DNA of 34,606 bases from a virus. The stretch is taken from IMG/VR virus record IMGVR_UViG_3300030390_000844, positions 1-34,606 of that record; one strand, written 5' to 3'. Below, in pieces: positions 10,518 through 34,473 of the stretch (positions within the stretch are counted from its first letter, which is position 1; each line of letters begins with the position of its first letter). The notes beneath the pieces are model-generated. The model did no database searches, was not told where the DNA came from, and saw nothing but the letters and a program-made list of their open reading frames with translations. A program made the translations under genes and the position numbers.

Positions 10518-11822
10518 ATGGCTTTAACTACTCCGAGCGACTTTAACCCCGCTCTAATTAAGAACTTGGATATGTCCAAGTACGTTGACCTCGGATCTTA
10601 TATCAATGAGGTGAACAAAGAAGATAACCGCGAAGCGCTTATCAAAACTTACGGTGGACAGGGAATCACAGGATTTCTTTCTATGGTGGGTGCTATCAAA
10701 GCTCAAGCTGTAGCTGACGAAGTTACTTATTGGGAAGAAGCTCGTCTTCACCAAAAGCAAGTTGGTACTGCTTCTTCTGATTTGACTGTAACTGCTGCTA
10801 ACGCTGCTTCTGTAGTTGTTCGTGTAGGTGATGTAGTTCTTTCAGGTTCTGATCGTTTCTATGTTTCTGCTATCGCTGCTGCTGCTATCACTCTTATCGC
10901 TCTTGACGGTTCTGCTGTCTTAGCTGACGGAGCTGTTGCACTTCCAGTTATCGGTAACTTATATACTCAAGGTTCTGACCAACCAAACGGTGGTTTCGAA
11001 TCTAACGTTGTTAAGCGTACTAACCCTTTCATGATTATGAAGGAAGCGTACAAGGTAAACGGATCTCAAGCTACCAACATCGGTTGGATCAACTTGGGTG
11101 GTGGAGATTACCGTTGGTACATGAAGTCTGAAGCTGATACGCGTCAGAGATTTATGGACAAGCGTGAGATGATGTTATTGTTAGGAGAGAAGACTTCTGC
11201 TGTTACAGGTATTAGTGGTTCTGAAGGTTACTTCGCTGCTATCGAGGACAGAGGAATTGTTGCTTCAGGTACTGATGCTGATTTCGCTTCTCTTGCTGAC
11301 GTTGATTCAATCATCGTTGAATTAGACAAACAAGGTGGTGCTGCTGAGTACGCTATGTATGTTGATCGTTCAACTGATCTTGCTCTTGACGATATGATCG
11401 CAGGTGGTGGTGCTTCTTTGAGCGCAGCTACTAGTGGTGTTGCTGGTCAGTTCGGTGCATTTAACAATGACAAGGACATGGCTGTAGAATTAGGTTTCCG
11501 TACATTCGGACGTGGAGGTTATACTTTCCACAAGCATGACTTCAAATTGTTGAACGACCCTACTCTATTGAGTGGTGCTGACTTCGCTGGTGTTATGATC
11601 CCTATGGCTAAAGTAGCTGATGCTAAGACTGGTGAGAAAGCTCCTGCTCTTGAAATCAATTACAAGGCTGCTAACGGATACTCTCGTGAGATGGAGCACT
11701 GGTTGACAGGATCTATCTTAGGTGCATCTAATGCAACTGAGGATAGCGTTCAGTTCAATTACCGTTCTGAGTGTAACTTGATTACTCGTGCCGCTAACCG
11801 TCACGTATTGTTGAAGAAGTAA
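10518..11822 (+). CDS. Major capsid protein
   Basis: A 434-residue protein. It has an N-terminal helical arm (DMSKYVDLGSYINEVNKEDN), a small Ala/Val-rich beta insertion at ~95-155 (TVTAANAASVVVRVGDVVLS) and a long central domain with VKRTNPFMIMKEAYKV. The C-terminal end is FNYRSECNLITRAANRHVLL, a pattern known from capsid proteins of podoviruses of Bacteroidota, including crAss-like phages. An HK97 fold is expected from the family, not visible directly. Position after the scaffold and before a terminator, plus uniform use of T-ending codons such as GCT, TCT and GGT, fits a very highly expressed virion protein. Confidence 0.85.
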   Translation: MALTTPSDFNPALIKNLDMSKYVDLGSYINEVNKEDNREALIKTYGGQGITGFLSMVGAIKAQAVADEVTYWEEARLHQKQVGTASSDLTVTAANAASVVVRVGDVVLSGSDRFYVSAIAAAAITLIALDGSAVLADGAVALPVIGNLYTQGSDQPNGGFESNVVKRTNPFMIMKEAYKVNGSQATNIGWINLGGGDYRWYMKSEADTRQRFMDKREMMLLLGEKTSAVTGISGSEGYFAAIEDRGIVASGTDADFASLADVDSIIVELDKQGGAAEYAMYVDRSTDLALDDMIAGGGASLSAATSGVAGQFGAFNNDKDMAVELGFRTFGRGGYTFHKHDFKLLNDPTLLSGADFAGVMIPMAKVADAKTGEKAPALEINYKAANGYSREMEHWLTGSILGASNATEDSVQFNYRSECNLITRAANRHVLLKK

Positions 11823-11891: not shown

Positions 11892-11899
11892 TATATTTG
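11892..11899 (+). promoter_or_regulatory. Promoter box TATATTTG after the capsid terminator
   Basis: TTTTGTATATTTGCA is the same sequence as at 3192-3206. It sits 14 bases after the terminator T tract. The next ATG is at 11930, giving a leader of about 25 bases. A T-rich stretch, not a TTG, lies at the -33 position. Confidence 0.75.
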
Positions 11900-11929
11900 C
11901 ACTATATATTTATTTAATTCTATTTTATT

Positions 11930-12739: not shown

Positions 12740-12768
12740 ACCCTAAACACTTAAACGATTATTACGAG

Positions 12769-12800
12769 GAGCTGCCCATTGGGTGGCTCTTCTTTTTTTT
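12769..12800 (+). terminator. Rho-independent terminator
   Basis: A nine-pair stem (12769-12777 with 12781-12789, two wobbles) closes a 3-base ATT loop and is followed by TTC and eight T residues. The next promoter box begins 3 bases later. Confidence 0.88.
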
Positions 12801-12810
12801 CGTATATTTG
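12779..12810 (+). promoter_or_regulatory. Promoter TTG-N21-TATATTTG overlapping a terminator
   Basis: The -7 box is at 12803-12810 (CGTATATTTGCA). A TTG at 12779-12781 is 21 bases upstream and is formed by the loop and first stem base of the terminator. The next ATG is at 12832. Confidence 0.75.
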
Positions 12811-12831
12811 CATAACAATAATACATACATC

Positions 12832-14377: not shown

Positions 14378-17300
14378 ATGGGCATCAACACCCTTACACC
14401 TCGTTACCTTAATTTAGATAACGATAGTCGCATTGTCGCTCCACAGGAGATGATTGACGCTTTAAACATACGTGTTTCTGCTGACGCTAGCGGAGATCAG
14501 GGTGTTGTAAAGAATATCAAGGGTAGCTCTTCAGTTCCTTATGATACTACTCCATTCACAGGAGAGAATCAAGTAATAGGAACATATGAGCACGAAGGCA
14601 CTAACAGACTATTTGTTTTTGTTTGGAACTCTAACGGACACCACTCTATCTATCAGATGGTTCAAGGTGGCACTCAATTCACTCTGGCAGTAAGATCCCA
14701 GCATATAACATTGACTAACAGTCCGTTGCATATATCTGCTATGGTAGTTAGTGGAGATGTATTTTTGTACTTTACAGATGGCCAAAGCGAGCCACAGAAG
14801 GTAAACGTAGATTCAGGTATAGCAATCAACTCTTACCCAACTGATGGTGAGAGCAATGTAATGAAGCTGTCTCCGAAAGCTCCGTTGGTGAGATACCTCA
14901 ACGACACAACAAGAACAACCAATGATCTTCTAGGTAAGTCTTTTCAATTCGCACTACAATATGTGTTCAGAGATGGAGAGGTTTCAGCTATTGGAGAATA
15001 CTCATCTAATACAGTATCATACAACACACTTAACGATATATACAGTAACGCAGAATACGACCTAGGGTTTAACCAAATCAAGGTACAAATTGACGGCGTT
15101 GTTGGAATAGGTCTAGGCACTACAATTCCTAAGCTAAGATTACACTACAGAGATGTACAGGATAACACCATGTTCTACGTAGGTGAATATACTTACGCAG
15201 AGTTGTTTGCTGAGGTAGACTTCTTTAATGATGGTTCTTACTCAGTGGTTAGCGATGCTGAATACAACAAGCTACAAGATGCTGTGCCTACTGTTGCACA
15301 ATCTATGACTATATCGGCTAACAGACTGATGTTCGGTAACTACAAGGAAGGTTTTGACAAGGAGACTATTGACGCTACTTTAGCGCCTACTTACTCTAGC
15401 GAGGCTGTAGACTTCAGAATGGTTGAGACAGCGGACTCAGGTCAGATAACTAAGAACGTAGTATTAAATACTGATGAGATAGCTAGTAGCCTTGCAGGTG
15501 ACGATGTTAACTTCATACTAGATTACGCAACTGACGAGTATACCTATACTAAATCAGCAGCTGAGTCTATTACTATTAAGAACGTAGCAGAGACTACAAC
15601 CTTGTTCACCACAGTGGCGGGTAACGTAAAGTTTAAAGTACCTAGAACTAGGTTCCTAAAGGCTACTACAATAGCAGCCCCGACTAGTCAGGCCGATTAC
15701 AATACTAAATTAGCAGCAGCCCTAGATGGTCTTGTTGTAACTAATAATATAACGAACACAGCGATAGTCAATCAGTTTTGGGCGGTCTATCCTAACTACA
15801 ATATTAACTGGAACGGTACAGTATCTCAGAAGATAGATGCAGCCGTAGTTGGTAACACAGTGGTTCTTACACAGAAGGTTATTAGCTTTAGCTTATTCAC
15901 TACGACTATCCAGAAGGATTCAGGTTCGGGTATGGTTGATCTTAACGGATCAGCAAGAGTAAGCGATAGTGCTTTCTCAGGTGTTGCAGGCACTGTGTCA
16001 GGTTTCCATATACATAGAGGAGCTAGTACAGCTTTCTTACAACAAGCTATAAGAACGTTTAAGACTGGTGAGACACACTCGATAGGGTTAGTGTTAGAAG
16101 ATCGCTTAGGACGTACGTCAGGAGTTTATGAGCTAGGTTCTGTAGCTGTAGCACCACTGGGTGATAGAGTAATAGGGGAGAGAGGCGTTGCAGCAATAAC
16201 AGTAACACCTACTACTACCATAGCTAACTCAGCATTTACTAACTACTTCTACGTATACAGTGGTGGTAATACTAAGTCTGACTTTATTCAGTACGGAGTT
16301 GCAGAAGCGCTTAAAGCAGATGCAGCAGCAACTGACCTAGACATTCTTAACTCAAATAACATATATGTATCCCTAAGAGGTTTACAGGGTCAGAAACAAT
16401 CTTACTCTGAGACTAAGGACTTTAAGTATGAGTTCTCTGAAGGTGATAAGATGAGAGTTATCTCTTACCTAGATGCTAATGGCGTAAGACAATATCCTAG
16501 TAATATAACATGGGATGTCAACAGCATAGCAACTATAGATACTGCAGCTCAACTAGATGGAGGGAATGCTAGTATTGAAACAGGTGAGTTTTTAGTCCTA
16601 GACAATAACGAAGATCTAGATGGATTCGGGCTTAGCGACATAGGCGCTTCCTCTAACTTGTGGGAAAACGATGTTATCTTTGAGATATACTCTAGAAAAA
16701 AAGTACAGACTACAAAGATATACAGAGCAATGTCTCCTAAGTATGCTATCGCTGAGATAAACAATGCTAAGGTTTTAACTGATGGTAATGCTTGGTATAA
16801 GCAACGTCAGATAAACTTCTCTAGCGCAAGCAATACTGCAGGTCTATCACCTAAAGTTCACTACGTTGAGTCTAAGCAGTTTAGCGATACAGACTCTACT
16901 ACTAATGCAGAGCTTGGTGGGAAGCCTTATGCTGTTATTAACAGTGAGAAAGAGCAACATAGAATATCTTCTGTAACATACTCTGACCCTCAGTTAGCTG
17001 ATTCTTCTCAGAATAACTTATCGTCTTTCAATAACTCTCTAGCCAACTTCAATGACTACGAGATGAACTACGGTGGTATCTTTGGAATGGTTGACAGTGG
17101 TGATGCAATAACTTTACTTCAGTCTGACAAGGTGTCTAGAATACCAGTTAGCCGTCAAATACTTTCTACAGGATCAGGGTCTACCATGATTACCCAGTCT
17201 ACTGACATCCTAGGTTTGCAACAACATTACCCTATCAACACAGGTATCAATGAAGATCGTACAGCTTTCTTAAAGGCAGACGGTGTTGTTTATATCGTTG

Positions 17301-18247
17301 ATGTTACCAGAGCTAAGCTCGTAGGGTTCTCAGGATCAGGGCTTAAGGTTCTTTCTGACAACGGTATATCTTCTTACATCGAGACTACTTGTTCTTCAAT
17401 GTTGGCTGATGCTGATGGTTATTTCGTTTCTATTGGTCAAGATAGATTGAATAATGAAATCATATTCTCTTTACAGAATAAACCGTTTACTTTTACTAAA
17501 TCAATAATACTCTCAATAGGACTAGATAAATTTACTTCTTTTGTTAGTTATACTAGTAACTATTACGCTACGCTAGGGATGAGAACTTTCGGGTTCAGAG
17601 CAGCAGATGGTGCTGAAGATGTGCCAACAGGACAAGAGCTAGGTGTTAATGCTGTACATAGTAACTTCTATGGAACTCAGTATGATGCTACAATTACTTC
17701 TGTATTTAACTCTAACCCTACTTCAAGAAAGGTATTCAACAGCATAGGCGTAGACGCTACTGCAAACCCTTCTGCTACACTCTCAACTATAGACCAAGAG
17801 GTTTCTATGACTGAGGGATCGTTTAGCGCTAAGGAAGGTGTTTTCTACAGCAATGTACCAAGAGAAGAAGGAACGTCTCAGTTCATCATGCTAGGTGAAG
17901 TATTACTTGAGTCTGACCCTAACATCAGTTTCGCACACAAGGTTAACAGACTACCGTTTAGATTAGGTGGTGATGTATACAAACTAAGTGGTGGAGTCAT
18001 GGTGGCAATGGCTGGAGTAACAGCTTTATCACTAGTTGATGCTAGAACTATCAACATGAATGGTAACGCAGGATCTGTAGTTGCAGGAGATATTCTAGGA
18101 GTTAAAGGAGCATCTGTAGACGGAGATCCTATGAGAGGTGCTTATGGCGAAATCAAGATAACATTCAACGACACCACAGCTCTTGAGTTGTTTAGTCTAA
18201 GTGCTCACACTTCAGAGAGTGGGTTACACAACAATAGTCAACAATAA
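14378..18247 (+). CDS. Large tail hub / nozzle (muzzle-like) protein
   Basis: A 1289-residue, mainly beta protein. The N terminus (PRYLNLDNDSRIVAPQEMID, then ALNIRV and GVVKNIKGS) matches the opening pattern of tail-hub proteins of Bacteroidota podoviruses, where a D-x-x-x-x-x-P-x-x-x-x-D-A-x-N-I segment precedes repeated beta domains. P22 gp10 and T7 gp12 fill the same place in their tails. Several strand-rich blocks with Tyr/Phe follow, and there is no enzymatic signature. It has no promoter of its own and is read from the ring-protein unit. The assignment uses length, position and N-terminal pattern. Confidence 0.78.
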   Translation: MGINTLTPRYLNLDNDSRIVAPQEMIDALNIRVSADASGDQGVVKNIKGSSSVPYDTTPFTGENQVIGTYEHEGTNRLFVFVWNSNGHHSIYQMVQGGTQFTLAVRSQHITLTNSPLHISAMVVSGDVFLYFTDGQSEPQKVNVDSGIAINSYPTDGESNVMKLSPKAPLVRYLNDTTRTTNDLLGKSFQFALQYVFRDGEVSAIGEYSSNTVSYNTLNDIYSNAEYDLGFNQIKVQIDGVVGIGLGTTIPKLRLHYRDVQDNTMFYVGEYTYAELFAEVDFFNDGSYSVVSDAEYNKLQDAVPTVAQSMTISANRLMFGNYKEGFDKETIDATLAPTYSSEAVDFRMVETADSGQITKNVVLNTDEIASSLAGDDVNFILDYATDEYTYTKSAAESITIKNVAETTTLFTTVAGNVKFKVPRTRFLKATTIAAPTSQADYNTKLAAALDGLVVTNNITNTAIVNQFWAVYPNYNINWNGTVSQKIDAAVVGNTVVLTQKVISFSLFTTTIQKDSGSGMVDLNGSARVSDSAFSGVAGTVSGFHIHRGASTAFLQQAIRTFKTGETHSIGLVLEDRLGRTSGVYELGSVAVAPLGDRVIGERGVAAITVTPTTTIANSAFTNYFYVYSGGNTKSDFIQYGVAEALKADAAATDLDILNSNNIYVSLRGLQGQKQSYSETKDFKYEFSEGDKMRVISYLDANGVRQYPSNITWDVNSIATIDTAAQLDGGNASIETGEFLVLDNNEDLDGFGLSDIGASSNLWENDVIFEIYSRKKVQTTKIYRAMSPKYAIAEINNAKVLTDGNAWYKQRQINFSSASNTAGLSPKVHYVESKQFSDTDSTTNAELGGKPYAVINSEKEQHRISSVTYSDPQLADSSQNNLSSFNNSLANFNDYEMNYGGIFGMVDSGDAITLLQSDKVSRIPVSRQILSTGSGSTMITQSTDILGLQQHYPINTGINEDRTAFLKADGVVYIVDVTRAKLVGFSGSGLKVLSDNGISSYIETTCSSMLADADGYFVSIGQDRLNNEIIFSLQNKPFTFTKSIILSIGLDKFTSFVSYTSNYYATLGMRTFGFRAADGAEDVPTGQELGVNAVHSNFYGTQYDATITSVFNSNPTSRKVFNSIGVDATANPSATLSTIDQEVSMTEGSFSAKEGVFYSNVPREEGTSQFIMLGEVLLESDPNISFAHKVNRLPFRLGGDVYKLSGGVMVAMAGVTALSLVDARTINMNGNAGSVVAGDILGVKGASVDGDPMRGAYGEIKITFNDTTALELFSLSAHTSESGLHNNSQQ

Positions 18248-18267: not shown

Positions 18268-19029
18268 ATGAATATCAAGAATAAACAAGGCAAGGTTAAG
18301 GAGTTCGCTATAGGTGGTCTAATTGGTGGTGGTGTACAAGCTGTCGCAGGTATTGGGCAAACTATCTATGGCATGCAGCAACTTAAGCAAGCTAACGCTA
18401 ACATGGATGAACTTCTAGCAGGAGCTCCTAAGTTAGGTTTACCTTCAGCATACAAAGAGTACGCTGCTAAGGCTCTAGATCAATCTGCACTTCGCATGCA
18501 AACGGAAGGAATCAATAGACGTTTAGCAACTTCTACAAACGCCCTTTCTAATGCAGGTGGACGTGCTTTACTAGGTGGTCTTCAGGGTCAGGTAGCTCAA
18601 GCTAACAATGCTCAAACTGTAGCGCAAAACGCTCAGCAGGCAAGAGAAATGCAAGGACTTCAAGTACTAGGAGCTGCACAAACGCAGAACCAAGGAATGA
18701 AAGAGAACAGATTCCGTATGCAGTATGGAGCAGCTGACGCAGCTAAGAACGCAGCCATTGCTAACATAGGTGGTGGTTTAAGTTCTACAGCAGGTGGAGC
18801 TATGCAAGCTGGTCTTGAATATGAAAAAGGTATGTTCGGTAAGAACGGACTAAAGCTCAAAGGTGAGTTCTCGCATGAGAGTAACCCTATAACAATGACG
18901 AACAAACAAGGAGAGGTAGTAGGTGAGGCCACAGGGTCAGAATACATCATCAACCCTAAACAAGCAGCAGCAATTTCTAAGGAGTCTAAGTACTTCAAGA
19001 ATCTGTTAAAGCAAAAACGATTTAAGTAA
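18268..19029 (+). CDS. Internal virion (ejection) protein, small member
   Basis: A 253-residue protein. Residues ~12-32 (FAIGGLIGGGVQAVAGIGQT) form a Gly-rich hydrophobic helix. Then come long Ala/Gln-rich helices (LLGGLQGQVAQANNAQTVAQ). The C-terminal segment contains GEVVGEATGSEYIINPKQAA, a motif also seen near the ends of tape-measure and ejection proteins of Bacteroidota phages. Size, Gly-rich membrane-active helix and position as first of three match T7 gp14-type ejection proteins that form the channel through the envelope. The stop overlaps the next start (TAATG). Confidence 0.8.
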   Translation: MNIKNKQGKVKEFAIGGLIGGGVQAVAGIGQTIYGMQQLKQANANMDELLAGAPKLGLPSAYKEYAAKALDQSALRMQTEGINRRLATSTNALSNAGGRALLGGLQGQVAQANNAQTVAQNAQQAREMQGLQVLGAAQTQNQGMKENRFRMQYGAADAAKNAAIANIGGGLSSTAGGAMQAGLEYEKGMFGKNGLKLKGEFSHESNPITMTNKQGEVVGEATGSEYIINPKQAAAISKESKYFKNLLKQKRFK

Positions 19030-20534
19030 TGGCTAACGGTACAGCAGGTTTAGGACAGGGATCACAGGTATTCGACTTTAGTAATCTAGGTCAACAAGGT
19101 TTGGCGTATGATGCTCGTAATCTAGCTAAGAAGGAAGTTTTCCAGAAGGATAACGCATCTCTATATGCTGGAATAGATAACAGTGGTATCCGTGATGTTG
19201 ATTCTGCATTTATAAACACTGAGATAGAGGCCGCTATGGAAGCCGCTGCAACCGCTCAGAAGTCTATGAACCCTGCTGATGCTCAGAAAGCTAAGCTAAT
19301 GATGCAGACCGCATCTAAGCATGCCGCTACATCTGTCGCTGCACAACAAGCGGAATACAAAACACAAGAAGTACTAAGACAAACACCTGAGTATGCTCGT
19401 AACATGGAGTTGTACAACAGTGATTTGAACACACATAGAACCCAAACTGCAATGAACGCTGGTAACGGTGGTGAAGTAGGTCAGGGTATCATATATCAAT
19501 CTCCTGTTATATATGACTCAGAGAAGTCAGTAGCAGAATTTGCATCAGTTGATTCTGAAAAAGTATTACGTGCGTCTCTAGAGAAGATGGGTAGCTCAGT
19601 AACTAATGCTGACGGTACTAGTAAGTCTTACTCTATTGCTGAGGTTGATCCTGAGATTAAGAGTGAGGTTATAAACAGCATGTATATGTCTCAGATGGAA
19701 TCTAACAAAGAGTTTAGACTATCTGTAGAAGCACAGTACATGGCTAAGATATTCGGTAAAGAAGATTTACTAGACCGTGATGTAGCTCAGTTCAATCAGT
19801 TACGTCAATACGGTGAAGAAATAAGAGGTCAGTTTACAACAGCTGATCAAATAGCTGAAGACCCACAGTTTGCTAACAATCCATTCAAGAGAGATAGAGC
19901 ACTGAAGGCATTCAACATGGAGAACGATTTAGCAGAGTATGGCCGTCAGGTTTATACTGAGGCAGTTGACCCACGTGCTATGAAAGGTAAGTCTGTTCAG
20001 TCTGCTAAGTCTGATGCAGCGAAAGCTACTGGTGGTGATGGTTTATCTTCTGATGATCTAGCTACATCTAACGGTATAAACATCAATGACGTTTTAGGTA
20101 ACGTTAAGATATCAGGTTCATTCCCTAACAGACAGGGCCAGAAACTAGGATACTCATCTGCTCCAAAGCTAAAGTCTTTTGGTAGTGGTTCAGGTACAGA
20201 GCGCATCGCATTCGGTGGTGTAGTAGCTCAAAGAGTTGGTAAAGAGGTTCAGTACTTCGCAGTAGAATATAAGCCGTCTGAGGACATCATGGCTCGTATC
20301 GCTGACATGGAGGCTGCAGGTTCTAGTGAGGAAGCTATCAGTGCTCTACTACAGAAGACAGATGCTACTTTAGTCAACTTACCAAGTGGTGGTGGTTATT
20401 CTCGTGCTACTCAAGGAGACTTGAAGACCATGAAAAGAGAGGCTCTTAAGCAAGCAGGTTTTGTTAATCTAGATCAAGATGCTCCGCAAGAAGAAGCTCC
20501 TGTAACGGAAGGCATTGGCGGTAAATATAACTAG
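19029..20534 (+). CDS. Internal virion (ejection) protein, middle member
   Basis: A 501-residue, Ala/Gln-rich, mostly helical protein (ALEAAA-type runs such as IEAAMEAAATAQKSMNPADA). A Gly/Ser-rich beta part lies around residues 345-430 (GSFPNRQGQKLGYSSAPKLK) and the tail is acidic. No transmembrane helix and no enzyme motif are seen. It sits between the small and the giant ejection proteins, the place T7 gp15 and P22 gp20 hold, and is coupled to the former by TAATG. The assignment is by order and composition. Confidence 0.72.
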   Translation: MANGTAGLGQGSQVFDFSNLGQQGLAYDARNLAKKEVFQKDNASLYAGIDNSGIRDVDSAFINTEIEAAMEAAATAQKSMNPADAQKAKLMMQTASKHAATSVAAQQAEYKTQEVLRQTPEYARNMELYNSDLNTHRTQTAMNAGNGGEVGQGIIYQSPVIYDSEKSVAEFASVDSEKVLRASLEKMGSSVTNADGTSKSYSIAEVDPEIKSEVINSMYMSQMESNKEFRLSVEAQYMAKIFGKEDLLDRDVAQFNQLRQYGEEIRGQFTTADQIAEDPQFANNPFKRDRALKAFNMENDLAEYGRQVYTEAVDPRAMKGKSVQSAKSDAAKATGGDGLSSDDLATSNGININDVLGNVKISGSFPNRQGQKLGYSSAPKLKSFGSGSGTERIAFGGVVAQRVGKEVQYFAVEYKPSEDIMARIADMEAAGSSEEAISALLQKTDATLVNLPSGGGYSRATQGDLKTMKREALKQAGFVNLDQDAPQEEAPVTEGIGGKYN

Positions 20535-20543
20535 GATTACAGC

Positions 20544-20574
20544 TTGAAATTCTCATAGTTTTTTTGTATATTTG
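20544..20574 (+). promoter_or_regulatory. Promoter TTG-N20-TATATTTG upstream of the giant ejection gene
   Basis: The -7 box TATATTTG is at 20567-20574 after a seven-T run, with a TTG at 20544-20546, exactly 20 bases upstream. No convincing hairpin precedes the T run. Downstream starts are GTG 20591 and ATG 20603. Confidence 0.75.
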
Positions 20575-20602
20575 TACTATCACATAAACAGTGGTAGACA
20601 TT

Positions 20603-23600
20603 ATGAACGATCAGGCCCTAAAGGACTCATACCAACAATTCACAGACACAGGTTACTCAGGTAGCTTGGAAGACTTTAAGACTCTTATCTCCTCTAACGA
20701 GGACGCTCGTAATGATGCACACAAACTTTTCACCTCGACAGGGTACGATGGTTCTATAGAGGACTTCGGAACGCTAGTCGGAATCAACTCTCCTAAAAAA
20801 AAAGATTCTACGGATTTGTCTTCGGACGATTCAGCTTGGGACTCTCTATCAATTGATACTGAGCCTGTTGGGTTCGCTCAAGGTTCAGGTGAGATCAATG
20901 AAGGTACGGTAGATGCACAGCGTAATCAAGCAGCTGAAGGAGATATCACAGTAAACAAAGGTCGTAAGACACAGGCTTTAGGTCAGGCTCTAGGCGAGAT
21001 GGCTAAAGAAGAAGAAGATGCAGTAGGTCGTTGGGCTAGATACCAAGATGGCTTAGATGTTGACGCTCCTAGTACTCAATCCACAACCAACCTTTCACCA
21101 TTCGCTGCTACATTAGCTCGTACAGATGAGAATGCTACTGAGAAGGAAATCAAAGACGCTAATACCGTTGATGAGGTTCGTGCTGCAGTTCGTAAGAGTA
21201 ACGCTGAAAAGGTAAACGTTGCTTACGATGATGCTATGTCTGACAACGACAAGGCTACTAATACAGATTCAGAATTTACAGAAGACGGTAAGAAAACCAA
21301 AGGTGGTCTTATTGAAACTGATGAAGAAGGTAATACTATATTCAACGAAAAGAACTTAGGTTTGACTCTAATGGATATGGATGCTGTTGCAACCAAAGAA
21401 GCTGCTAGTGTAGCTCGTGAGGCAGCAAGAGTAGAAGGTAGTAGTGTATTGGGCTTAGTTGCTCATGACATGGCTACAGGTATCATGGACATCACTAACT
21501 CGGTACAAGGTGTGTACGATAGAGAGGGAGCTCAAGATGACATGTACGAAAACACATTCAGAACACAAGCATCTTACAAAGAGTACGGATTAACAGAAGA
21601 GGAAATAGGTAAGGGTGTTTCAGAAAACTTAGCAGAGGGTAATATCTCAGCAGCATCTAAGGTGTTCGCTGTTCAGGCTGCACAGACAGTACCTCAGTTA
21701 TTATCACAAGTTGCTATTGCATATGCTACAGGTGGTCTAGGAGCTAGCGCTTCTGCATCTATGTGGGCATCTTCAGGGTTCATGGGAGCTACTACATTCG
21801 GACGTACTTGGGCTGATACCTATGGACAGATGGATAACAGCAAAGCATTCATGTTAGCTCTAGGAGACGCAGCAGCAGAGACTTTATCAGAGAGATTGTT
21901 TACCAGTGATGTTAAAGCACTTAGTGGTGTTGGAGCTGTTGCAGGTAAGACTCGTAATGAGATCAAGGACATGTTGTTTGCTAAAGGTCTTCTATCTAAG
22001 GAGTTCGGTAACTTCGGAATCACTGCAGTCAAAGGTGCTGTAATGGGTGGTGCTGAGGAAGGTCTAGAAGAGATCATCGCTACAGTAGGTTCAGGTATTG
22101 TTCATGCAGCTGTCAATGACGAAGAGATAAACCTTTATGAGGTTATGGATTCAGCTATCATTGGTTTCGGTATGGGTATGGGGTCTAACGTTGCAGGAGC
22201 TGCCTTCAAAGGTAAAGGTCTATTAACTGCAGGTGTTTCTGCTTTGGGTTACGGTGGTCTTCGTTCTGAGTTGGTTAAGATCAAGTCAAACAAAACTAAG
22301 CTAGCTAAAGAGTTAACAGAGACTTCTGATGCTGCTAGAAAAGAAGTGCTTATCGGGAAGATTAAAGCTCTTGAAGGATTAGAGATGCAAATTGCTAAAG
22401 ATACAGAAGCTGCTTATGATAGTTATTCTGATAGTGATGCTAAGACTACAATAGAAGCTAATCAAAAGTTAAGTAATATATTATATAAATTAAGAAACAA
22501 TACAAATAATTTAACTAAGGAAGAAAAGATATCTCTAACAAAGCAGGCGCAAGAGCAGTTTGGGATAATTAACAGCGTTGAGGCAAAGTATGAAGGTGAG
22601 GTTGCTGCAATTAAAACACAACAAGCAGAGAATACAGAGTTCTTAAACGGAATGGAAAGTAGTGTTGAGGTATCTGAAACAACAGAACTTCCTAACACAC
22701 CATTGATGAGAGGTATCAAGAACGTTGCTAAAGCATTAGCTAACAAGGGTACTAAGGTATTTATTCACAGAAATCTAGACGATGCTGCTGAGGTTTCAGG
22801 AGCTGATAAGCTAGATCTTGCAGGGTCTAATGGATTCTACAAAGCAGAAGATGGTACTATTCACATTATGGCTAGTTTGGCACAGAATAATACAGCTTAC
22901 CATGAGGGATTCCACGATATACTACGTGATGTTTCTCCTGATTATGCTAAGAGATTTGTTGATGCTGCACTAAGAGGAATGGATTCAGATACAGCTGCTA
23001 AGTATAAAGCTATCTATGCTTCTAACATGAAGTCTGGTGGACAGAAACTAGCAGTAGAAGAAGTATTCGCTGAGATCCAAGCTGACATAGCTGTAGGAGC
23101 TATCAGTGAGACAGGAGCTGGGACATCAGTTGTTCGTGCTGCAATGGAGTCTGTTAAGAAGAGTTTAAACGCTCTAGGTATTCCTGTAAAGCCAACAGCT
23201 TCTTTCAAGGAGTTCGTTAACTTCGTAGGATCTGTAAACAAAGACTTCACAACAGGTACTACGGCAACGGCTTCTAAGGGTAAGTTTGGTAGCAACGAGA
23301 TTACTACAGAGAACTTCATGCAGATGAGTGCTAAGGCAGTTGATGCATTGAAGACAGCAACAGAGGCTCAGTTCACAGTAGCTAAAGGAAAGAAACTTAA
23401 TGGATCATTTATAAACTCTAACACTACCTTCACCAACTTGGCTGAGGTTGTAGAGACATTCAAGAAAGAAAACGGACGTGCTCCAAAGGTATTGTTCTGG
23501 ATGGGTGACCAATCGGCAAGAGGAGCTTATGCTACTTCTGATGGTACTAACATCGACTTAGAGGGTGGTATATCTTTCTCTCAAGATCCTGCTAACACTG

Positions 23601-26600
23601 ACAACGGTGTAGTATGGGCAACTAACAAGAACAACAACGAAGTACAAGGTCTAGTTAAAGATGCTGACATCGTAGCTATTGTATCGGGTAAGCCTGAAAC
23701 AGGACACAGATTCTACAAAGGAACTTCTGTTGTTATCGGTACTGAGTTGATGGAGGCGTTTAACAGAAACAAAGGTCAGTCTATCGAGTACCCACAACGT
23801 GGTGGTGCATTCAACTTTGAAATACCTACTGAGGGTTTCACTGATCCTTTACAGGCTATGCAGTTCTTCTACTCTACTCTATCAGAGAAGGGCTTAGACT
23901 TTGTTGCAGCACAGGAGTTTATCGAGAACTCAAAAGGATTCGCTACACAAGCTGAGTATTTAGCTCAGTCTAAGGGTGATCGTATGGGTGCTTTGAATTA
24001 CTTCTTAGAGCCTAGCATAACTGCTGATGCATTCTTCTCTAACTTGGGAATGAAGCCAATGGCAGACGTACAGACTGAAATGCGTGATGGTTACTTAGTA
24101 GAGAATGAGTTCACTACAGGAGACATCTATGCGTTCTACCAGTTCACTAGAGATGCTGACGGTAAAGTAGAAACTGCTGACGGTAATCACTCTACTTACT
24201 CAACAGATATAAAAGGTAAAGCATTAGGTATTGCTAACCGTAGAGATAACATCTATCAGGTTGCTGACTTAGGTGCATCTACTACTTCAGAAAATAAACT
24301 ATCAGGTTCTTCTAAATTAGAATTACTTAAGGAAGAAGGATACGTAACACAAGCTCAGATTGACGAGGTTAACAGCCTAGAACAAGCAGAGCAAGGTAAA
24401 GCTAAGAACGCATTAATCAGAAAAGCCTCTGTAGAGGTTAAGAAGGATGGTAACGAGCTGTTGACTAGTAGGTTAACTAACAAGGGTGGTTACATTTCAG
24501 CTGAGACTGCAGGTGATAAGTCACTTAAGAGAATTGTATCTGATGCAGGTACTGCTTATGATGGTCAGACTTTACTAGAATCATTAATTGCAGGTCAAAC
24601 TGCTGATGGCCGTCAAGAGGCATTGAACAAGGCTGCGGCTGAGTTGGTTGCTGAAGGTAAGGCTAAAGAAGTTGAGTTCAAGAAAGGTAAGAACAAGTTC
24701 ACAGAGAGCTCACTACCTGTAGGTCTAGTACTTGAGAGAGCTGCTAGAAACGAAGATGTATCTTTTGACTCTATGGCTACCTCTGTTAATGCAGAGACTA
24801 AGCGTAAAGCATCTATACTACACCAAGCTACTATCATCATTGAGATAGCAGAGAGAATATTATTAGGTGAAAAGAAAGCCGCTATAGTTGCTAGCTTGCG
24901 TGCTAAGGGCATGAGTTCTGCTGATGCTAACTTAGTATACGCTAAGTCTGCTCAGTACGCTAAAGGAGCTAAGAAAGGCTGGACTGAAGGAACTAGAGAG
25001 CGTAGTGCTCAACATGCTGCCAAGCGTAAAGCTGAGCGTAAGCAAGAGAGTGCCAAGGCTAAAGACTTCCGTAAGAAAGCTGCAGCAATACTTAACCAAG
25101 AGAAGAAAACAGGTGATGTTATACTACGTGAGATAGCTAACCTAATCAAAGAAGCAGGTGTCGAGATTAAAGCATCTCAGGTGAATACGTTAATCCGTAT
25201 CGCTAAGAAGGTTGCTAGAGTTAAAGGACGTTCTGTATTAGATACTGAAGCAAGATATGAGCTACTTAACTCTATCACAGACAAAGTAGTTAAGATTATA
25301 GATAAGCAAATTACTGCTAAGGAATTAGACGAGTACACTAACAGACTAAGAAAGGTAGAATCTGAGCAAAGAAAGCTAAGAGATAGGTTAACCAAACTTA
25401 AGAACAATAGTAGAAGTCCTCTAATTAGTTACGCAGATCAGATACTAGACATGACCAGCCTTAACGCTGCTATGTTATCTCCTGAGAGTTTAATACTCCT
25501 TGAGGCTAGTATAAAAGACTTACAAATTAGCACCAAGTCTGTATCAGTTACGGGTCAGAAGTTAGGAAAGCCTTACATATTTGTTGAGGGCCTAGGTAAC
25601 GTTGACGCAAGAAGAGCTAAGTTATACTTCAATGAGATTTACGAAAACCTTAAGGTTGAGGAAGTTGCATTACAGGAGAAGACACTTGTTGAGAAAGCAA
25701 CAGACTTAGCATTTGAGAATGATACTGACTGGGTAGCTGAGTATAATAACCTAATCAAGCAGATAAGCGAGAAGGATCTGAAAGGTGTTCAGAAGAAGTT
25801 GGCTGACATAGCTGAGGACTTGGGACTTGACCTTAACGATATCAATGACTTCGCTATCGCTGAGAAGATTTACTCTGAGGAGAAGACTGAGAAGTTGAAC
25901 TCACAGAAAGATGTTATAGTGAACGATGCAATCCTACCAACCTACATGAACTTCAGAAGACTGTTTGAGTCTAATGAGTCATTGGCTGCTATCTTTGGCG
26001 TACCTACTGATGTAGATGATGCTACTGCAGCTGAGATTGTTAAGGGACGTATGGAGAAGTTAACAGCACTAGAGCTTAAGAGATTAGAGTTCGGTATGTA
26101 TGACTTCGCTGTCAATGGCAAAGCATTAGGTATGTCTCAATTGGCTGCTATTATCACTGCCAAGAATGACAACAACCCTAAGCTAGCTAAGTTAGGTCTT
26201 AAGTCAAGAGAGAAAGAAGGAGCTGGTAAAGGAGTCTATAGTAGATTCGAGAACACTCCATCTTACTTCCGTAGATTATTCCTTGCATCTGAAGCTAAGA
26301 TAGCTCAGTTCATGGACATCGTTGGATTCTCTGAGTTACGTTCTGCCGTAGCACTTGCCGATAGCATTGCTAACACGATGGAAGAGGTTCTTATCGAGAG
26401 AGCTAAAGAGCTTGGTGTAGCATCATTATCTAGTCAGGTTAAGATACAAATACTAAGTGTTTTATCTCAGGTTCCTTCAGGTAAAAATAATACTCAGCAT
26501 CTTGCACAGGTTGTTGCTAGTTTAGAGTTAGCTTACTTGAGTGACAAGAGATTTGATGAGGACATGAAAGCTGAGGTACGTGCCGCATTAGACGAGGTAT

Positions 26601-28879
26601 TGTACGATGGTGGAAAGGGTAAGAACTATGACGATATCATAGCATCATTCGAGGGAACTAACGAGCTCCTAATGTTACAGGAACTACGTGGCCAGTTCGG
26701 TGCACAAGCCGTTATGACTAAGACTTACGCTGAAGAGTACTTAGGTATGAACTTCAAAGAGGAAGAGAACTACATGCCTATACGTATGCGTGCAGTAGGG
26801 TCTAACAACAATGACATTACTAGATTACAAGAAAACATAGAGAACATACAACAAGCCTACAGAAGCTACGGGTCTGCTCAGCAGAAACAAGCATCTTCTA
26901 CCTACGAGCGTAACGCTGAAGCAATGGGTAGTAAGACTAGGTATATAGACTTAAACTTCTATGACGGAGCTGCTAAAACTTTCCGTGAGAATGAAGTAAA
27001 AGCCAGAACAGCATCATCAATAGCTAAGTTATCTACCATGACATCTGAGGCTAACGAAGAGTTCAAAGCAGTCGTAACAGAGCCTGAGCAACGTCAGAAA
27101 GTACGTAAGAAGGTAATGTTATTCCTAACAGAGAACGCACAAGTTATAGAGCAACAAGATGAGTTGATCGGAACTAGCTTGAAGAAATTCTCTAAGGAGC
27201 TTAACAACCTTACAGTATTGTACTTCTTTGGTAGTGCAGTTATACAGGTGTTTAAGCAGTCTTCTGCTATCGCTAACACTGTCATAGAGGGTGGTAACTT
27301 CTTCACTGTTATGGGGTACGTTATGACCGCTGCAACAGGTAAGTATTCTTCAGGACAAAAAGCAGTAATGCAGAAGTCTGATATCGGTGGACGTGATTAC
27401 ATCAAGGAAACTGTAAGTGCTACCGTGAAGGGTAACGCAATGACTGAGAATGGTAAGTGGTCACGCATGAGAGGTAAGGCATTTGACCTATCTACATTGG
27501 GCCTAAGACAAGCCGATAAGGTTGCTGCTACAGCATCTTGGTTAGCTTACTTCGAACAATACCAGAGAAAAGAAAACGGATTCACAGGTGAGGTTAATGA
27601 CGAGCAATGGAGAGCATGGTCTGTAGATTATGATGGTGCTGCTGCTGATTACGCTACATTGATGGTTACAAAGGATCAGAATGTATCTACTAGTCGTGAC
27701 AAGTCAGAGTTCCGTAACATGAACTCAGGTCAGGTTGCTCAGTTTATCCAGATGATTGTTATGCCATTTGCTAACTTCCTTATTAACAAGAAGTTAAACC
27801 TTATGTTGGATTTCCAGAAACTAGGGAAAGGTGAGACCAGAGTAGAGGCTATCAAGTCTATCGGTGGTACAGCTCTTGAGGTTGCTGCATTCCACGGAGT
27901 GTCTCAGTTTGTTATCGCTCCAATGATTCAAGCTCTTGTTGCTGCCATAGGTGGTGGAGAAGAAGAGGAAGAAGATTCATGGTTTGATGCTGAGTTCAGA
28001 TGGGGATTATTCAAGAAGGGTATGCTGTCTGATTTGAATCCATTGGTTATGCCTGTAGGCGCTATGGAGTCTTGGGCTACTACTGCTTACAACATGGTTG
28101 ACTTTATGGCTACTGATGAAGCTAGAGAGTATGAGTTCGAAGATAGAAGTTGGTACGAGAATTTCCAAGCGTGGGAAACTGTAAACGGAATGCCTAAGTT
28201 CAATGGAGCAGGTAGAGGAGATATGAATTGGATTACTGCCCTAAAAGGTGGTGGTGTATACGGAGACGTTACAGTGGAGCTTGCTCTATCCGCTCTTAAC
28301 CTTAAGACATTAGCTGAGAAAAACCCTTACTACGTTACAACGTTTGGAACTAAGAAGTACCTATCTAGCAAGGATGCTAAGAGCATGATGAAGTTAGAGG
28401 GAGCTAAGCTATCAATGATGACCATCGGAGGCTTTACAGGGCTATTCTCGAAAGAGGCAATGGCTGCTATAAAAGGACGTGAGCGTCAAGTTGGTAAGAG
28501 AGGAATCACTAATGAGAACGAGGCTATCGGTAGAATGATTATCAACGAAGGTAAGGGAACAGATTTAATGACTGACAAGATTGTTCAGAAAGCTAAGTCT
28601 AACCCATTAGCAGTTGAGTCTACAGTGAGAGCTATAGTAGGTGACAAGGTTGTTAAAAGCGTAACAGCAGATAAACTACCAAGCCCTAAGTATATTAACA
28701 CTATCCGTGATATTGCAGTTAAGACTCAAGACCCACGTGATGCAGCTCTAGCAGCTAAGGTTGTAATGATGAGTATGTCTCCAGCTGAGGCAGAAGAGTT
28801 CAAGTCAGACTTCCTTAAGTACATCGTACTGAAACAAGGAGAGAGTGCAGTAGCAAATATAGCAATGATATTAAAATAG
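20603..28879 (+). CDS. Giant internal virion / ejection protein with HExxH metallopeptidase-like domain
   Basis: About 2758 residues; ATG 20603 is preferred over GTG 20591. Visible parts, in order: two 30-residue repeats at 13-28 and 43-58 (F-T-x-T-G-Y-x-G-S-x-E-D-F-x-T-L); hydrophobic helices at ~355-405 and ~518-540; a zincin-like site YHEGFHDIL with H767, E768, H771 and acidic candidates E819/E820/E824 in VEEVFAEIQAD; a very basic helical stretch ~1447-1503; a coiled coil ~1565-1605; hydrophobic helices ~2200-2245 and ~2423-2453, the last followed by a GGGEEEEED run. Position and size match the largest ejection protein of podoviruses (T7 gp16, P22 gp16, N4 virion polymerase) and the giant cargo proteins of crAss-like phages. 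No DxDGD-type RNA polymerase motif was seen. Protease activity is inferred. Confidence 0.82.
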   Translation: MNDQALKDSYQQFTDTGYSGSLEDFKTLISSNEDARNDAHKLFTSTGYDGSIEDFGTLVGINSPKKKDSTDLSSDDSAWDSLSIDTEPVGFAQGSGEINEGTVDAQRNQAAEGDITVNKGRKTQALGQALGEMAKEEEDAVGRWARYQDGLDVDAPSTQSTTNLSPFAATLARTDENATEKEIKDANTVDEVRAAVRKSNAEKVNVAYDDAMSDNDKATNTDSEFTEDGKKTKGGLIETDEEGNTIFNEKNLGLTLMDMDAVATKEAASVAREAARVEGSSVLGLVAHDMATGIMDITNSVQGVYDREGAQDDMYENTFRTQASYKEYGLTEEEIGKGVSENLAEGNISAASKVFAVQAAQTVPQLLSQVAIAYATGGLGASASASMWASSGFMGATTFGRTWADTYGQMDNSKAFMLALGDAAAETLSERLFTSDVKALSGVGAVAGKTRNEIKDMLFAKGLLSKEFGNFGITAVKGAVMGGAEEGLEEIIATVGSGIVHAAVNDEEINLYEVMDSAIIGFGMGMGSNVAGAAFKGKGLLTAGVSALGYGGLRSELVKIKSNKTKLAKELTETSDAARKEVLIGKIKALEGLEMQIAKDTEAAYDSYSDSDAKTTIEANQKLSNILYKLRNNTNNLTKEEKISLTKQAQEQFGIINSVEAKYEGEVAAIKTQQAENTEFLNGMESSVEVSETTELPNTPLMRGIKNVAKALANKGTKVFIHRNLDDAAEVSGADKLDLAGSNGFYKAEDGTIHIMASLAQNNTAYHEGFHDILRDVSPDYAKRFVDAALRGMDSDTAAKYKAIYASNMKSGGQKLAVEEVFAEIQADIAVGAISETGAGTSVVRAAMESVKKSLNALGIPVKPTASFKEFVNFVGSVNKDFTTGTTATASKGKFGSNEITTENFMQMSAKAVDALKTATEAQFTVAKGKKLNGSFINSNTTFTNLAEVVETFKKENGRAPKVLFWMGDQSARGAYATSDGTNIDLEGGISFSQDPANTDNGVVWATNKNNNEVQGLVKDADIVAIVSGKPETGHRFYKGTSVVIGTELMEAFNRNKGQSIEYPQRGGAFNFEIPTEGFTDPLQAMQFFYSTLSEKGLDFVAAQEFIENSKGFATQAEYLAQSKGDRMGALNYFLEPSITADAFFSNLGMKPMADVQTEMRDGYLVENEFTTGDIYAFYQFTRDADGKVETADGNHSTYSTDIKGKALGIANRRDNIYQVADLGASTTSENKLSGSSKLELLKEEGYVTQAQIDEVNSLEQAEQGKAKNALIRKASVEVKKDGNELLTSRLTNKGGYISAETAGDKSLKRIVSDAGTAYDGQTLLESLIAGQTADGRQEALNKAAAELVAEGKAKEVEFKKGKNKFTESSLPVGLVLERAARNEDVSFDSMATSVNAETKRKASILHQATIIIEIAERILLGEKKAAIVASLRAKGMSSADANLVYAKSAQYAKGAKKGWTEGTRERSAQHAAKRKAERKQESAKAKDFRKKAAAILNQEKKTGDVILREIANLIKEAGVEIKASQVNTLIRIAKKVARVKGRSVLDTEARYELLNSITDKVVKIIDKQITAKELDEYTNRLRKVESEQRKLRDRLTKLKNNSRSPLISYADQILDMTSLNAAMLSPESLILLEASIKDLQISTKSVSVTGQKLGKPYIFVEGLGNVDARRAKLYFNEIYENLKVEEVALQEKTLVEKATDLAFENDTDWVAEYNNLIKQISEKDLKGVQKKLADIAEDLGLDLNDINDFAIAEKIYSEEKTEKLNSQKDVIVNDAILPTYMNFRRLFESNESLAAIFGVPTDVDDATAAEIVKGRMEKLTALELKRLEFGMYDFAVNGKALGMSQLAAIITAKNDNNPKLAKLGLKSREKEGAGKGVYSRFENTPSYFRRLFLASEAKIAQFMDIVGFSELRSAVALADSIANTMEEVLIERAKELGVASLSSQVKIQILSVLSQVPSGKNNTQHLAQVVASLELAYLSDKRFDEDMKAEVRAALDEVLYDGGKGKNYDDIIASFEGTNELLMLQELRGQFGAQAVMTKTYAEEYLGMNFKEEENYMPIRMRAVGSNNNDITRLQENIENIQQAYRSYGSAQQKQASSTYERNAEAMGSKTRYIDLNFYDGAAKTFRENEVKARTASSIAKLSTMTSEANEEFKAVVTEPEQRQKVRKKVMLFLTENAQVIEQQDELIGTSLKKFSKELNNLTVLYFFGSAVIQVFKQSSAIANTVIEGGNFFTVMGYVMTAATGKYSSGQKAVMQKSDIGGRDYIKETVSATVKGNAMTENGKWSRMRGKAFDLSTLGLRQADKVAATASWLAYFEQYQRKENGFTGEVNDEQWRAWSVDYDGAAADYATLMVTKDQNVSTSRDKSEFRNMNSGQVAQFIQMIVMPFANFLINKKLNLMLDFQKLGKGETRVEAIKSIGGTALEVAAFHGVSQFVIAPMIQALVAAIGGGEEEEEDSWFDAEFRWGLFKKGMLSDLNPLVMPVGAMESWATTAYNMVDFMATDEAREYEFEDRSWYENFQAWETVNGMPKFNGAGRGDMNWITALKGGGVYGDVTVELALSALNLKTLAEKNPYYVTTFGTKKYLSSKDAKSMMKLEGAKLSMMTIGGFTGLFSKEAMAAIKGRERQVGKRGITNENEAIGRMIINEGKGTDLMTDKIVQKAKSNPLAVESTVRAIVGDKVVKSVTADKLPSPKYINTIRDIAVKTQDPRDAALAAKVVMMSMSPAEAEEFKSDFLKYIVLKQGESAVANIAMILK

Positions 28880-28886: not shown

Positions 28887-29294
28887 ATGAATAAGATCGC
28901 ACTAATGTTGAAAGCCCTAGTTGGGGGTGTTGGAAAAGCAATTGATGGAGGAGGTGGCATAGAAGCCATCGCCAAGTTGGTTGATGAGTACAAGCTCACC
29001 GATGAGGAAATTATGAAAGAGGAATCAGATTATGAGAATCAGTTAACAGCTCGTTTACAAGCCGACATGTCTAGTGACAATTGGTTAGCTAAATCAGTTC
29101 GTCCTATTGGATTCATGCTATGGACTGCAGTAGTCCTAGTGATGATATTCTTGGATGGGAACCTTGGAGCATTTGAAATCAAAGCTGCTTACTTACCGCT
29201 AATCGAAACGGTTTACGTATCATACCTAGCGTTCTACGTTGGTAGTCGTGGTGTTGAGAAAACGATACGTGTTTGGAATGAGAAAAAGAATTAA
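28887..29294 (+). CDS. Holin (3TM gene-transfer-release type)
   Basis: A 135-residue protein. After a Gly-rich N-terminal helix and an acidic linker it contains RLQADMSSDNWLAKSVRPIG, the hallmark of this holin family, then hydrophobic helices at ~74-90 and ~98-118 and a charged C terminus. The N-terminal hydrophobic stretch (IALMLKALVGGVGKAI) may be a third helix. It makes holes that let the amidase (8226-8639) reach the cell wall. It lies 7 bases after the giant protein, as the last gene of the late rightward operon. Confidence 0.87.
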   Translation: MNKIALMLKALVGGVGKAIDGGGGIEAIAKLVDEYKLTDEEIMKEESDYENQLTARLQADMSSDNWLAKSVRPIGFMLWTAVVLVMIFLDGNLGAFEIKAAYLPLIETVYVSYLAFYVGSRGVEKTIRVWNEKKN

Positions 29295-32517: not shown

Positions 32518-32834
32518 TACCTGATGTTGTATCTGCGTCTGTATCTCTCTAGTCTCCACTTACGTATTGCTACGTTAGTAGTAGTTAGAGTACCGACACT
32601 AATAGTAACCATCGCCCAAACCGCTTTGTCTAAGCTAGCAAAGGTATTGTCGCTAGGCTGAGTGTACACAATAGCACCTGATAAAAAGCCTACAGCCATT
32701 AACTGAGCTGCTACTACCTGTGAAGTACGAAGTGCTTGTTCCCTGCGCTCATGTCTCTTCTCGATAGTATAACGAGATTGTGCGCTAGCGGCCATCCCGA
32801 CCACTAGACACATTGTTATTGCTAACGCTCTCAT
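32517..32834 (-). CDS. Membrane protein with signal peptide
   Basis: A 105-residue protein started at ATG 32834, which overlaps the phosphoesterase TAA as TAATG; the frame is open further upstream but overlaps that gene out of phase. The N terminus MRALAITMCLVVGMAASAQS is a signal peptide with an A-S-A-Q cleavage region. A basic helical stretch (KRHERREQALR) and two hydrophobic helices (VVAAQLMAVGFLSGAIVY and AVWAMVTISVGTLTTTNVAI) follow, with a basic tail ending RYRRRYNIR. No family is recognised. Confidence 0.7.
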   Translation of the reverse strand: MRALAITMCLVVGMAASAQSRYTIEKRHERREQALRTSQVVAAQLMAVGFLSGAIVYTQPSDNTFASLDKAVWAMVTISVGTLTTTNVAIRKWRLERYRRRYNIR

Positions 32835-33583
32835 TATTTGCCGCCCATTAACATTGGAACTGCAATAGCAGTAGTACCGCCTAAGACAACACCACAACCG
32901 ATAGCTGACTTCTTACCACCTTTAGCATAACCCATGGCATAAGACTTGTCATCTATACCACAACCAACAGCCATACCAAATACTCTAGTGTTAGCACCAA
33001 CGTGGTAGTTAACATAGAAATCTGTGTGATAGTGGCCAGTTACAGTAGATTGCATATCACGAACACAAGCAGACTTTGCCTTACCTGCACCATCGCCGTG
33101 AGTATAACGAACACCATCAAGGTAGTAGTCCATCATAAATTCCCACTTAGGAGTCTTAAGTACCTCAGAGATATCTTTCAACCACTCAGCAGGTACACCG
33201 CTTGTCTGAGCTTTACGCATGATTAATCTATCGTGGTTACCCCATAGGACAACAGCCTCGGGAAACGCCTTGTAGTACTTAGCTAAACGCTTGATAGCGA
33301 ACTTAAGCTCGTCACCGCCACCCATTCCGTTAGGATCAGCCTCGTGGTAACTTGAATAGTGATTGTCAATAACATCACCAATGAATACAACCTTGTTACA
33401 ATTGTAACGTTCGTATGTCTCAACGCAGTGTCCTAGATAACCATCAAGGTCAAAAGGAGCGTGCACATCACCTACTACTAGGACTCTGTTCTCTCCGTTG
33501 TTGAAGTACTCATGATTGGTTAACTTCGAACCAGCTAAACGTGGGCGAACATCTTTTACTTTTTTAGTTTTAGTCTTTCTCAT
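32834..33583 (-). CDS. Calcineurin-like metallophosphoesterase
   Basis: A 249-residue enzyme with all the motifs of the family: GDVHAP (D39, H41), FIGDVIDNH (D70), LWGNHDR (N116, H117), H162 in YTHGDG, and GHYH (H184, H186). These bind two metal ions for hydrolysis of phosphodiesters or phosphomonoesters. Phage members may act on nucleotides or nucleic acids; the substrate here cannot be told. The last 30 residues are unusual, a Gly/Ala/Val-rich hydrophobic tail (KSAIGCGVVLGGTTAIAVPM) that could touch membrane. It heads the chain of overlapping envelope genes. Confidence 0.9.
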   Translation of the reverse strand: MRKTKTKKVKDVRPRLAGSKLTNHEYFNNGENRVLVVGDVHAPFDLDGYLGHCVETYERYNCNKVVFIGDVIDNHYSSYHEADPNGMGGGDELKFAIKRLAKYYKAFPEAVVLWGNHDRLIMRKAQTSGVPAEWLKDISEVLKTPKWEFMMDYYLDGVRYTHGDGAGKAKSACVRDMQSTVTGHYHTDFYVNYHVGANTRVFGMAVGCGIDDKSYAMGYAKGGKKSAIGCGVVLGGTTAIAVPMLMGGK

Positions 33584-33806: not shown

Positions 33807-34025
33807 TTAGAGGCCGTGGAACTCTTCCACTATTGCGACAAGGCCCTCGAGTTCAACCTCTATAGCTTTCCTTGTCCATGTTACTTCTTTCTTTGTTTCT
33901 GCCAAGTTCATGTCATTACCAGACAGCTCGTCCTGAAGGTCATACACATAATTGGCTATGCGGTCTATAGTCTCATGTTGAAACGCTAGTGCATCTTGTT
34001 TACTTAAACATTGTCTGTTGCTCAT
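33807..34025 (-). CDS. Small helical hypothetical protein
   Basis: A 72-residue acidic, helical protein (ALAFQHETIDRIANYVYDLQ; AETKKEVTWTRKAIEVELEG) that may form a coiled-coil hairpin. It overlaps the end of the resolvase-like gene by 26 bases. No function can be given. Confidence 0.62.
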   Translation of the reverse strand: MSNRQCLSKQDALAFQHETIDRIANYVYDLQDELSGNDMNLAETKKEVTWTRKAIEVELEGLVAIVEEFHGL

Positions 34026-34473
34026 CTGATGTCAGGAGTTTAATAAGGTCGTTTACTTGACCTTGGTTTTTAGGAAGGAATACTTGATAGTCAGCCATGC
34101 CATTCTCGTTGAGGTAGGCAAGGAATAATTTCCATCTAAGTGGAAACGAATGATTACTAGGTACGAAGCCCTTGGTTTCAATAATGAACTTGTGGGTGTG
34201 GCTAACAAAGTCAGGCTTGTAAGTGATAGCACGTACCAGCTTACCTGTCTTATCTGTTAACTCTTTCTTCTTAGGAGACGATGCCATGTAGCGACCTAGG
34301 AACTTGAACGAGGGTAGAACCGTGAATGATTCCCCCTCATATTCAAATTCTAGACCTGTCTCCTTCAACTTAGTATAGCAGTAAGCCTCGAGTGTTGAGG
34401 CAAACGTGATACCATCTATAACTTTCTTCTTAGATGATACTGCACCAGTCTTCTTACGTGTGAATTTTCTCAT
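34000..34473 (-). CDS. PD-(D/E)xK nuclease, Holliday-junction-resolvase-like
   Basis: A 157-residue protein. The N terminus is basic; E29 lies in ITFASTLEAYCYTKLKE, and the core is YKPDFV (P87-D88) and FIIETKGF (E99, K101), giving the PD-x10-ExK catalytic set with the expected upstream helix Glu. This arrangement fits DUF1064/T7-endonuclease-I-like enzymes that cut branched DNA during replication or before packaging. The start is 5 bases after a promoter box, so the mRNA may be leaderless. No zinc-binding Cys cluster is present. Confidence 0.83.
   Translation of the reverse strand: MRKFTRKKTGAVSSKKKVIDGITFASTLEAYCYTKLKETGLEFEYEGESFTVLPSFKFLGRYMASSPKKKELTDKTGKLVRAITYKPDFVSHTHKFIIETKGFVPSNHSFPLRWKLFLAYLNENGMADYQVFLPKNQGQVNDLIKLLTSDEQQTMFK

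Follow-up and report, generated by a model that had tools for sequence, protein, structure and literature searches.

A zincin-like metallopeptidase module in the giant, probable ejection protein of a podovirus related to flavobacterial phages

The largest gene of the window (the whole 34,606-nucleotide stretch of DNA analyzed here, bases 1-34606 of a 62108-base virus record) encodes a giant protein carrying a zincin-like metallopeptidase domain, very probably with the zincin fold and an intact active site. The reading favored here, at a probability of about 0.45, is that of a zincin metallopeptidase housed in a giant ejection protein and most likely engaged in processing, in cis or among its partners. 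The frame is open on the plus strand between 20603 and 28879 and yields 2758 aa from the ATG at 20603, with a GTG 12 bases upstream of it (20591). At 8277 of 34606 bases (24%), the gene takes up close to a quarter of the window, as the first-pass annotation had stated. The domain is convincingly a zincin-like module of the kind already described for giant phage proteins, to which the window adds an example.

The window phage is a podovirus related to flavobacterial phages, and its structural genes have counterparts of low identity in flavobacterial podoviruses. For the 434-aa capsid-type protein, matches were obtained in 85 phage records (68 from Flavobacterium, 15 from Cellulophaga, one from Maribacter and one other), and for the 1289-aa structural protein in 81 (Table 1). 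The gene order parallels that of Cellulophaga phage phi38:1 (Pervagoviridae) and Flavobacterium phage elemoA 7-9A, where the final gene of the run likewise encodes a giant recorded as a structural protein; in the phi38:1 record this label rests on similarity to phi18:1 gp101. The portal gene is found at 52645-55029 of the full virus record. Elsewhere in the window lie a 552-aa tail-fibre-like protein with a C-terminal Peptidase_S74 chaperone domain (3202-4860; Pfam E 9.6e-17) and, on the minus strand, a metallophosphoesterase (32834-33583; phrog_221 E 6.3e-50, Pfam Metallophos over the cut-off) and a DUF1064 protein (34000-34473; Pfam E 7.8e-10).

Table 1. Features of the window discussed in the text, with positions counted from its first base.
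Feature	Position	Strand	Basis
434-aa capsid-type protein	10518..11822	+	phrog_13704 E 1.6e-120; homologue in Calle_1 listed as structural/major capsid protein
1289-aa virion structural protein, query for the motif-independent set	14378..18247	+	phrog_14478 E 2.2e-69
253-aa candidate small ejection protein, glycine-rich hydrophobic stretch near N-terminus	18268..19029	+	position
501-aa candidate middle-sized ejection protein	19029..20534	+	position; same place as phi38:1 gp100 and N4 gp51
2758-aa giant, last protein of the structural run, probable ejection protein with zincin module	20603..28879	+	synteny with phi38:1 gp101 and elemoA gp21
N-terminal 61 residues of the giant, two short repeats, common to distant giants	20603..20785	+	41% and 46% identity to L013 and L015
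Zincin-like metallopeptidase domain, residues ~700-860	22700..23182	+	alignment, model, structural matches
HExxH (HEGFH), residues 767-771	22901..22915	+	H, E, F and H invariant in 13 rows
EEVFAE, residues 819-824, presumed third metal ligand among E819/E820/E824	23057..23074	+	invariant in 13 rows; long helix of the model
Junction, residues ~907-921, where L002 has extra residues	23321..23365	+	comparison with L002
Region after the zincin, residues 941-1250	23423..24352	+	includes the protein's best conserved stretch
Holin-like gene, directly 3' of the giant gene	28887..29294	+	phrog_3427 E 5.4e-10

Following the tail genes, three consecutive genes (18268-28879) encode a small, a middle-sized and a giant protein (253, 501 and 2758 aa), the same order as N4 gp52-gp51-gp50 and similar to that of phi38:1. 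Neither the 253-aa nor the 501-aa protein matches a Pfam or PHROG family. From its position and its homology to proteins recorded as structural, we infer that the giant is a virion protein that is probably ejected, which agrees with its earlier description as an ejection protein. ElemoA gp21 (3694 aa) and phi38:1 gp101 (1691 aa) occupy the same operon position. The former is longer than the window giant, has a DUF3293 domain and contains a homologous zincin region with HEIFH, about 24% identical to that of the window, whereas the latter has no HExxH and no detectable overall sequence similarity to the window giant. Searched as a whole, the 2758-aa protein gives no match at 0.001 in PHROG, nothing above a cut-off in Pfam or NCBIfam, no sequence match among solved structures and no phage match at 1e-5 by tblastn.

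The giant contains a single HExxH, H767-E768-G-F-H771 in the context AYHEGFHDIL, as first described. By itself the motif is only a hint, because shuffling the protein 2000 times gives an HExxH in eight copies. Acidic residues had also been pointed out some 50 positions further on; these correspond to E819, E820 and E824, which are helical in the predicted model and invariant in a 13-row alignment of zincin regions. The invariant columns of this alignment (G, T, H, E, F, H, E, E, E and a later G) are the proposed catalytic residues plus a few neighbors, to be read with the composition of the alignment in mind: six rows come from a two-pattern scan in which one pattern included part of the motif, and four more were chosen from the 50-locus set described below for resemblance to it. 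By analogy with the superfamily we infer that H767, H771 and one glutamate of EEVFAE would bind the metal and that E768 would activate the water. Weak Pfam matches of the zincin region to GSKIP and TxDE lie under the cut-off and are taken as chance.

Structure prediction makes a zincin fold likely. The AlphaFold2 model built on the 13-row alignment has a mean pLDDT of 71, with block means of 69-90 over residues 667-836, and runs in the order helix, three strands, HExxH helix and long helix bearing the glutamates. The two histidines, which would have spoken against a zincin had they been far apart, are placed four residues from each other on one predicted helix. Foldseek against the PDB returned nothing at E 0.001 or better, the top zincin being PPEP-1 at 0.45. 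In a second look with VIA-align, rows 1-35 are all zincin-fold proteins, at Z 5.1-6.5 and thus all under 8: 12 are PPEPs, 10 match anthrax lethal factor in its catalytic domain and about 13 involve N-terminal regions of lethal factor, edema factor or Certhrax, taken here to be non-catalytic relatives of the zincin fold. The best catalytic-domain matches are PPEP-1, -2 and -3, with Z reaching 6.5 across 146 residues at an rmsd of 3.8. These are small proteases whose identity to the window domain is 11-19%, and the likeness is silent on specificity here. Below row 35 come IrrE (Z 4.2) and N4 gp50 (Z 3.8 and 3.5). A model of residues 925-1350 of the same protein, a rough control given its poor quality, gave no row at Z >=5. 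Among viral models six matches reach E 0.001 or better, led by the elemoC structural protein, the counterpart of elemoA gp21, and the entry at rank 8 (E 3.7e-3) bears the name large polyvalent protein associated domain protein. Searching PDB sequences with a profile of the 13 zincin regions brought up no zincin. The order of elements and the top VIA-align rows favor a zincin fold, and the signal from Foldseek alone is weak.

Is the motif kept among relatives? Two uncultivated phages encode the whole giant or the greater part of it, with best segments 69% and 61% identical, and both carry HEGFH. A scan with the zincin region found 10 loci, two of which are these close relatives; the other eight all have an HExxH, in frames of 1577-3703 aa, two of which are truncated where the contig stops. 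This set cannot alone show conservation of the motif, because one of the scan patterns held part of it. A fairer set is formed by 50 loci recruited with the 1289-aa neighbor, independently of the motif. All 34 giants visible for at least 1200 aa (the shortest for 1288) carry an HExxH, against 0.3 expected from shuffling each; the cut of 1200 aa was chosen after seeing the lengths, and no giant falls between 940 and 1288 aa. Three identical or near-identical pairs and one 97%-alike pair are included, leaving 30 giants after removal. The remaining 16 loci do not bear on the question: 10 show just part of the giant (250-940 aa, with no HExxH in that part), two have contigs that end in the recruiting gene and four are without a giant frame. 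A profile of the 13 zincin regions covers the HExxH and beats the best reversed decoy (domain E 0.0016) in 24 of the 34 giants, five of which had contributed to the profile or share a contig with a contributor. In the other 10 it does not rise above the decoys, and there homology of the motif would rest on position and local pattern. As to described families, DUF5700 (putative zinc peptidase) matches one relative at 4.5e-4 and the PHROG 'metallo-protease' matches four of the 10 members listed (best 1.8e-5), and the window protein itself is matched by neither. One contig of 6 kb, listed under a Proteobacteria MAG (L074, 714-6044), holds a 1777-aa frame with a similar HExxH region and is probably a phage contig.

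Among the named relatives whose giant was inspected, the motif is found in two of five (elemoA and Gundel_1) and absent from phi38:1 (1691 aa), phi19:3 (1871 aa) and Panino (1829 aa), in which an HExxxH variant was also sought and not found. These three giants are shorter than all nine complete zincin-bearing ones (2482-3693 aa), which fits the absence of a module. The expectation that relatives would keep the motif thus holds for all 34 giants of the motif-independent set, with the glutamates invariant in the aligned rows, and fails for three shorter named relatives. In Maribacter phage Panino the giant of the structural run (L067, 6229-11718) is annotated 'tRNA methyltransferase', which looks doubtful because the protein is encoded where the ejection protein belongs and matches LPD38 at 1.8e-5, short of the cut-off.

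The giants that phages and plasmids inject have been described as polyvalent proteins, in which zincin-like domains are the commonest domain and are proposed to carry out self-processing or to attack host proteins (Iyer and others, 2017; PMC5512222, in its accessible text). The window protein is related to these proteins and built like them. Both are giant phage proteins encoded beside virion genes, and the core order given for polyvalent zincins in the same text (helix, three strands, HExxH helix, glutamate helix) is that of the window model. Twelve clades of such zincins have been described. The window protein itself matches no curated family in PHROG, Pfam or NCBIfam at the cut-offs used. 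The relatives L013 and L015, which combine a window-like N-terminus with a zincin, carry LPD38 far above the cut-off, and L015 also has an ART-PolyVal match below threshold. LPD38 exceeds the cut-off in three of 23 relative records; it was not found in the record of the window by a search that was silent on its controls too, and a comparison of C-terminal profiles gave nothing. Searches of PHROG, Pfam and NCBIfam added no further domain, and the zincin is the only one identified in the window protein.

The ejected RNA polymerase of N4, gp50, offers a second parallel. The window protein had originally been contrasted with it, and N4 gp50 is indeed an RNA polymerase; the contrast itself falls away, as gp50 also has an HExxH (at 2228) in a zincin-like domain. 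This domain is described for the N4 polymerase in the accessible text of PMC5512222 and for N4-type polymerases in that of PMC8472413, and the part seen of a preprint (PMC12633501) places the HExxH in subdomain C1, residues 2124-2375. Like the window giant, gp50 is the giant last ejection protein and bears an HExxH domain, in N4 in the mid to C-terminal part. Because the N4 polymerase has one too, the HExxH zincin-like domain is a recurring kind of domain in giant ejected proteins. The structural match of N4 gp50 to the window model is weak, and in a sequence profile comparison N4 stood outside the 12 best rows when set against its own reverse and 200 shuffles. No PHROG or Pfam match to an RNA polymerase domain was obtained over the 2758 aa, and a search for DxDxD, a pattern of some RNA polymerases, was negative; a very distant RNA polymerase fold may be present in the window protein. 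The relative L046 matches the PHROG of virion RNA polymerases at 5.3e-4.

The N-terminal repeats of the giant are followed by KKKD (region 20603-20800); distant giants have in common with it either the repeats or a KKK at a comparable position. KKK occurs in the first 100 residues of 14 of 47 giants against 2.6 expected, a motif picked after viewing the sequences; eight loci had been removed beforehand as near-duplicates, four of them confirmed and four judged by gene positions only. This region is possibly a packaging signal. Nonsynonymous codons between the window and L001 amount to 65 of 141 at residues 560-700, 39 of 160 at 701-860 and 39 of 80 at 861-940, so that the zincin sits between variable linkers, where the nonsynonymous share is higher. 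Just after the zincin, the close relative L002 (~11880-12914) has about 345 inserted residues with a second HExxH, in a zincin-like module. The insert resembles g065 of the crAss-like phage phi14:2, whose annotation is said in its record to rest on MS/MS proteomics, and proteins of Rhizobium phages; it is a case of module insertion between close relatives. Residues 951-1050 (23453-23752) are the best conserved part among three relatives, exceeding even the zincin, and match no family. For residues 925-1350 the model is poor (mean pLDDT 53) and structure searches were uninformative; tblastn against phages gave no match at E 1, and in viral contigs only the two known close relatives were matched.

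What, then, does the domain do? Processing of the giant itself or of its partners is tentatively regarded as its main role. After packaging or on arrival at the host, the domain would cut the giant in its variable linkers, or the two smaller partners, and the cuts would free modules or remodel the ejection complex. Processing is favored because the active site seems intact and the domain lies between variable linkers, because P1 DdrB, which bears such a zincin domain, is cleaved before packaging (PMC5512222, accessible text), and because the shortest giants are without the zincin. Against it stand the weak Foldseek result, Z-scores that all stay under 8, a profile below the decoys in 10 of 34 giants, the missing motif in three of five named relatives and the N4 polymerase, which according to the same text is packaged uncut. 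The main rival, a somewhat unlikely one, holds that the zincin is injected with the DNA as a host-directed effector and cleaves host defense or regulatory proteins within the first minutes. Such a role has been proposed for the class (PMC5512222, same text); it would suit a zincin that is optional among named relatives and flanked by modules that turn over, to the point of a second zincin inserted in L002, and other giants have ART-PolyVal-like or GNAT-like matches, both below cut-offs. Its presence in all 34 giants of the motif-independent set speaks against such a role, as a weapon in rapid exchange would be expected to be less constant.

Less probable still is a zincin fold that does no cutting and serves packaging, refolding or the inhibition of other domains. 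In N4 the region holding this domain is needed for packaging (PMC5512222, accessible text) and the C-terminal part of the polymerase inhibits it (part of the preprint PMC12633501), but in the present alignment the invariant residues are the catalytic ones, including the presumed general base E768. That the protease would cut periplasmic or membrane proteins and so assist envelope crossing is quite improbable: the zincin is located in a probable ejection protein, yet searches of PHROG and Pfam gave the giant no signal, lytic or peptidoglycan-binding domain. A chance HExxH in a long protein, of the sort that the few positive shuffles produce, can practically be dismissed, given the motif in every giant of the motif-independent set, the invariant flanking residues and glutamates, and a predicted fold that fits.

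A literature search, in which subscription papers were thinly covered, retrieved no paper evidently on a zincin in giants of the flavobacterial type, and the accessible portions of PMC7077304, PMC8776804 and PMC10136315 do not mention a zincin domain of these giants. A bolder scenario, to which we give a rather low probability, is that many podoviruses related to flavobacterial phages share a lineage-wide injected protease that would keep a fixed place in the giant and cut host proteins at entry, with extra protease modules added beside it as in L002, with phi38:1-like phages as natural versions without it, and with the rest of the giant changing almost beyond recognition. Whether injected zincins cut the phage's own proteins or those of the host is left open in the accessible text of PMC5512222. 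For this question the lineage provides a comparison set, in which cultivated flavobacterial phages share the order of their structural genes and differ in the domain, present in elemo and Gundel_1 and absent from phi38:1 and phi19:3.
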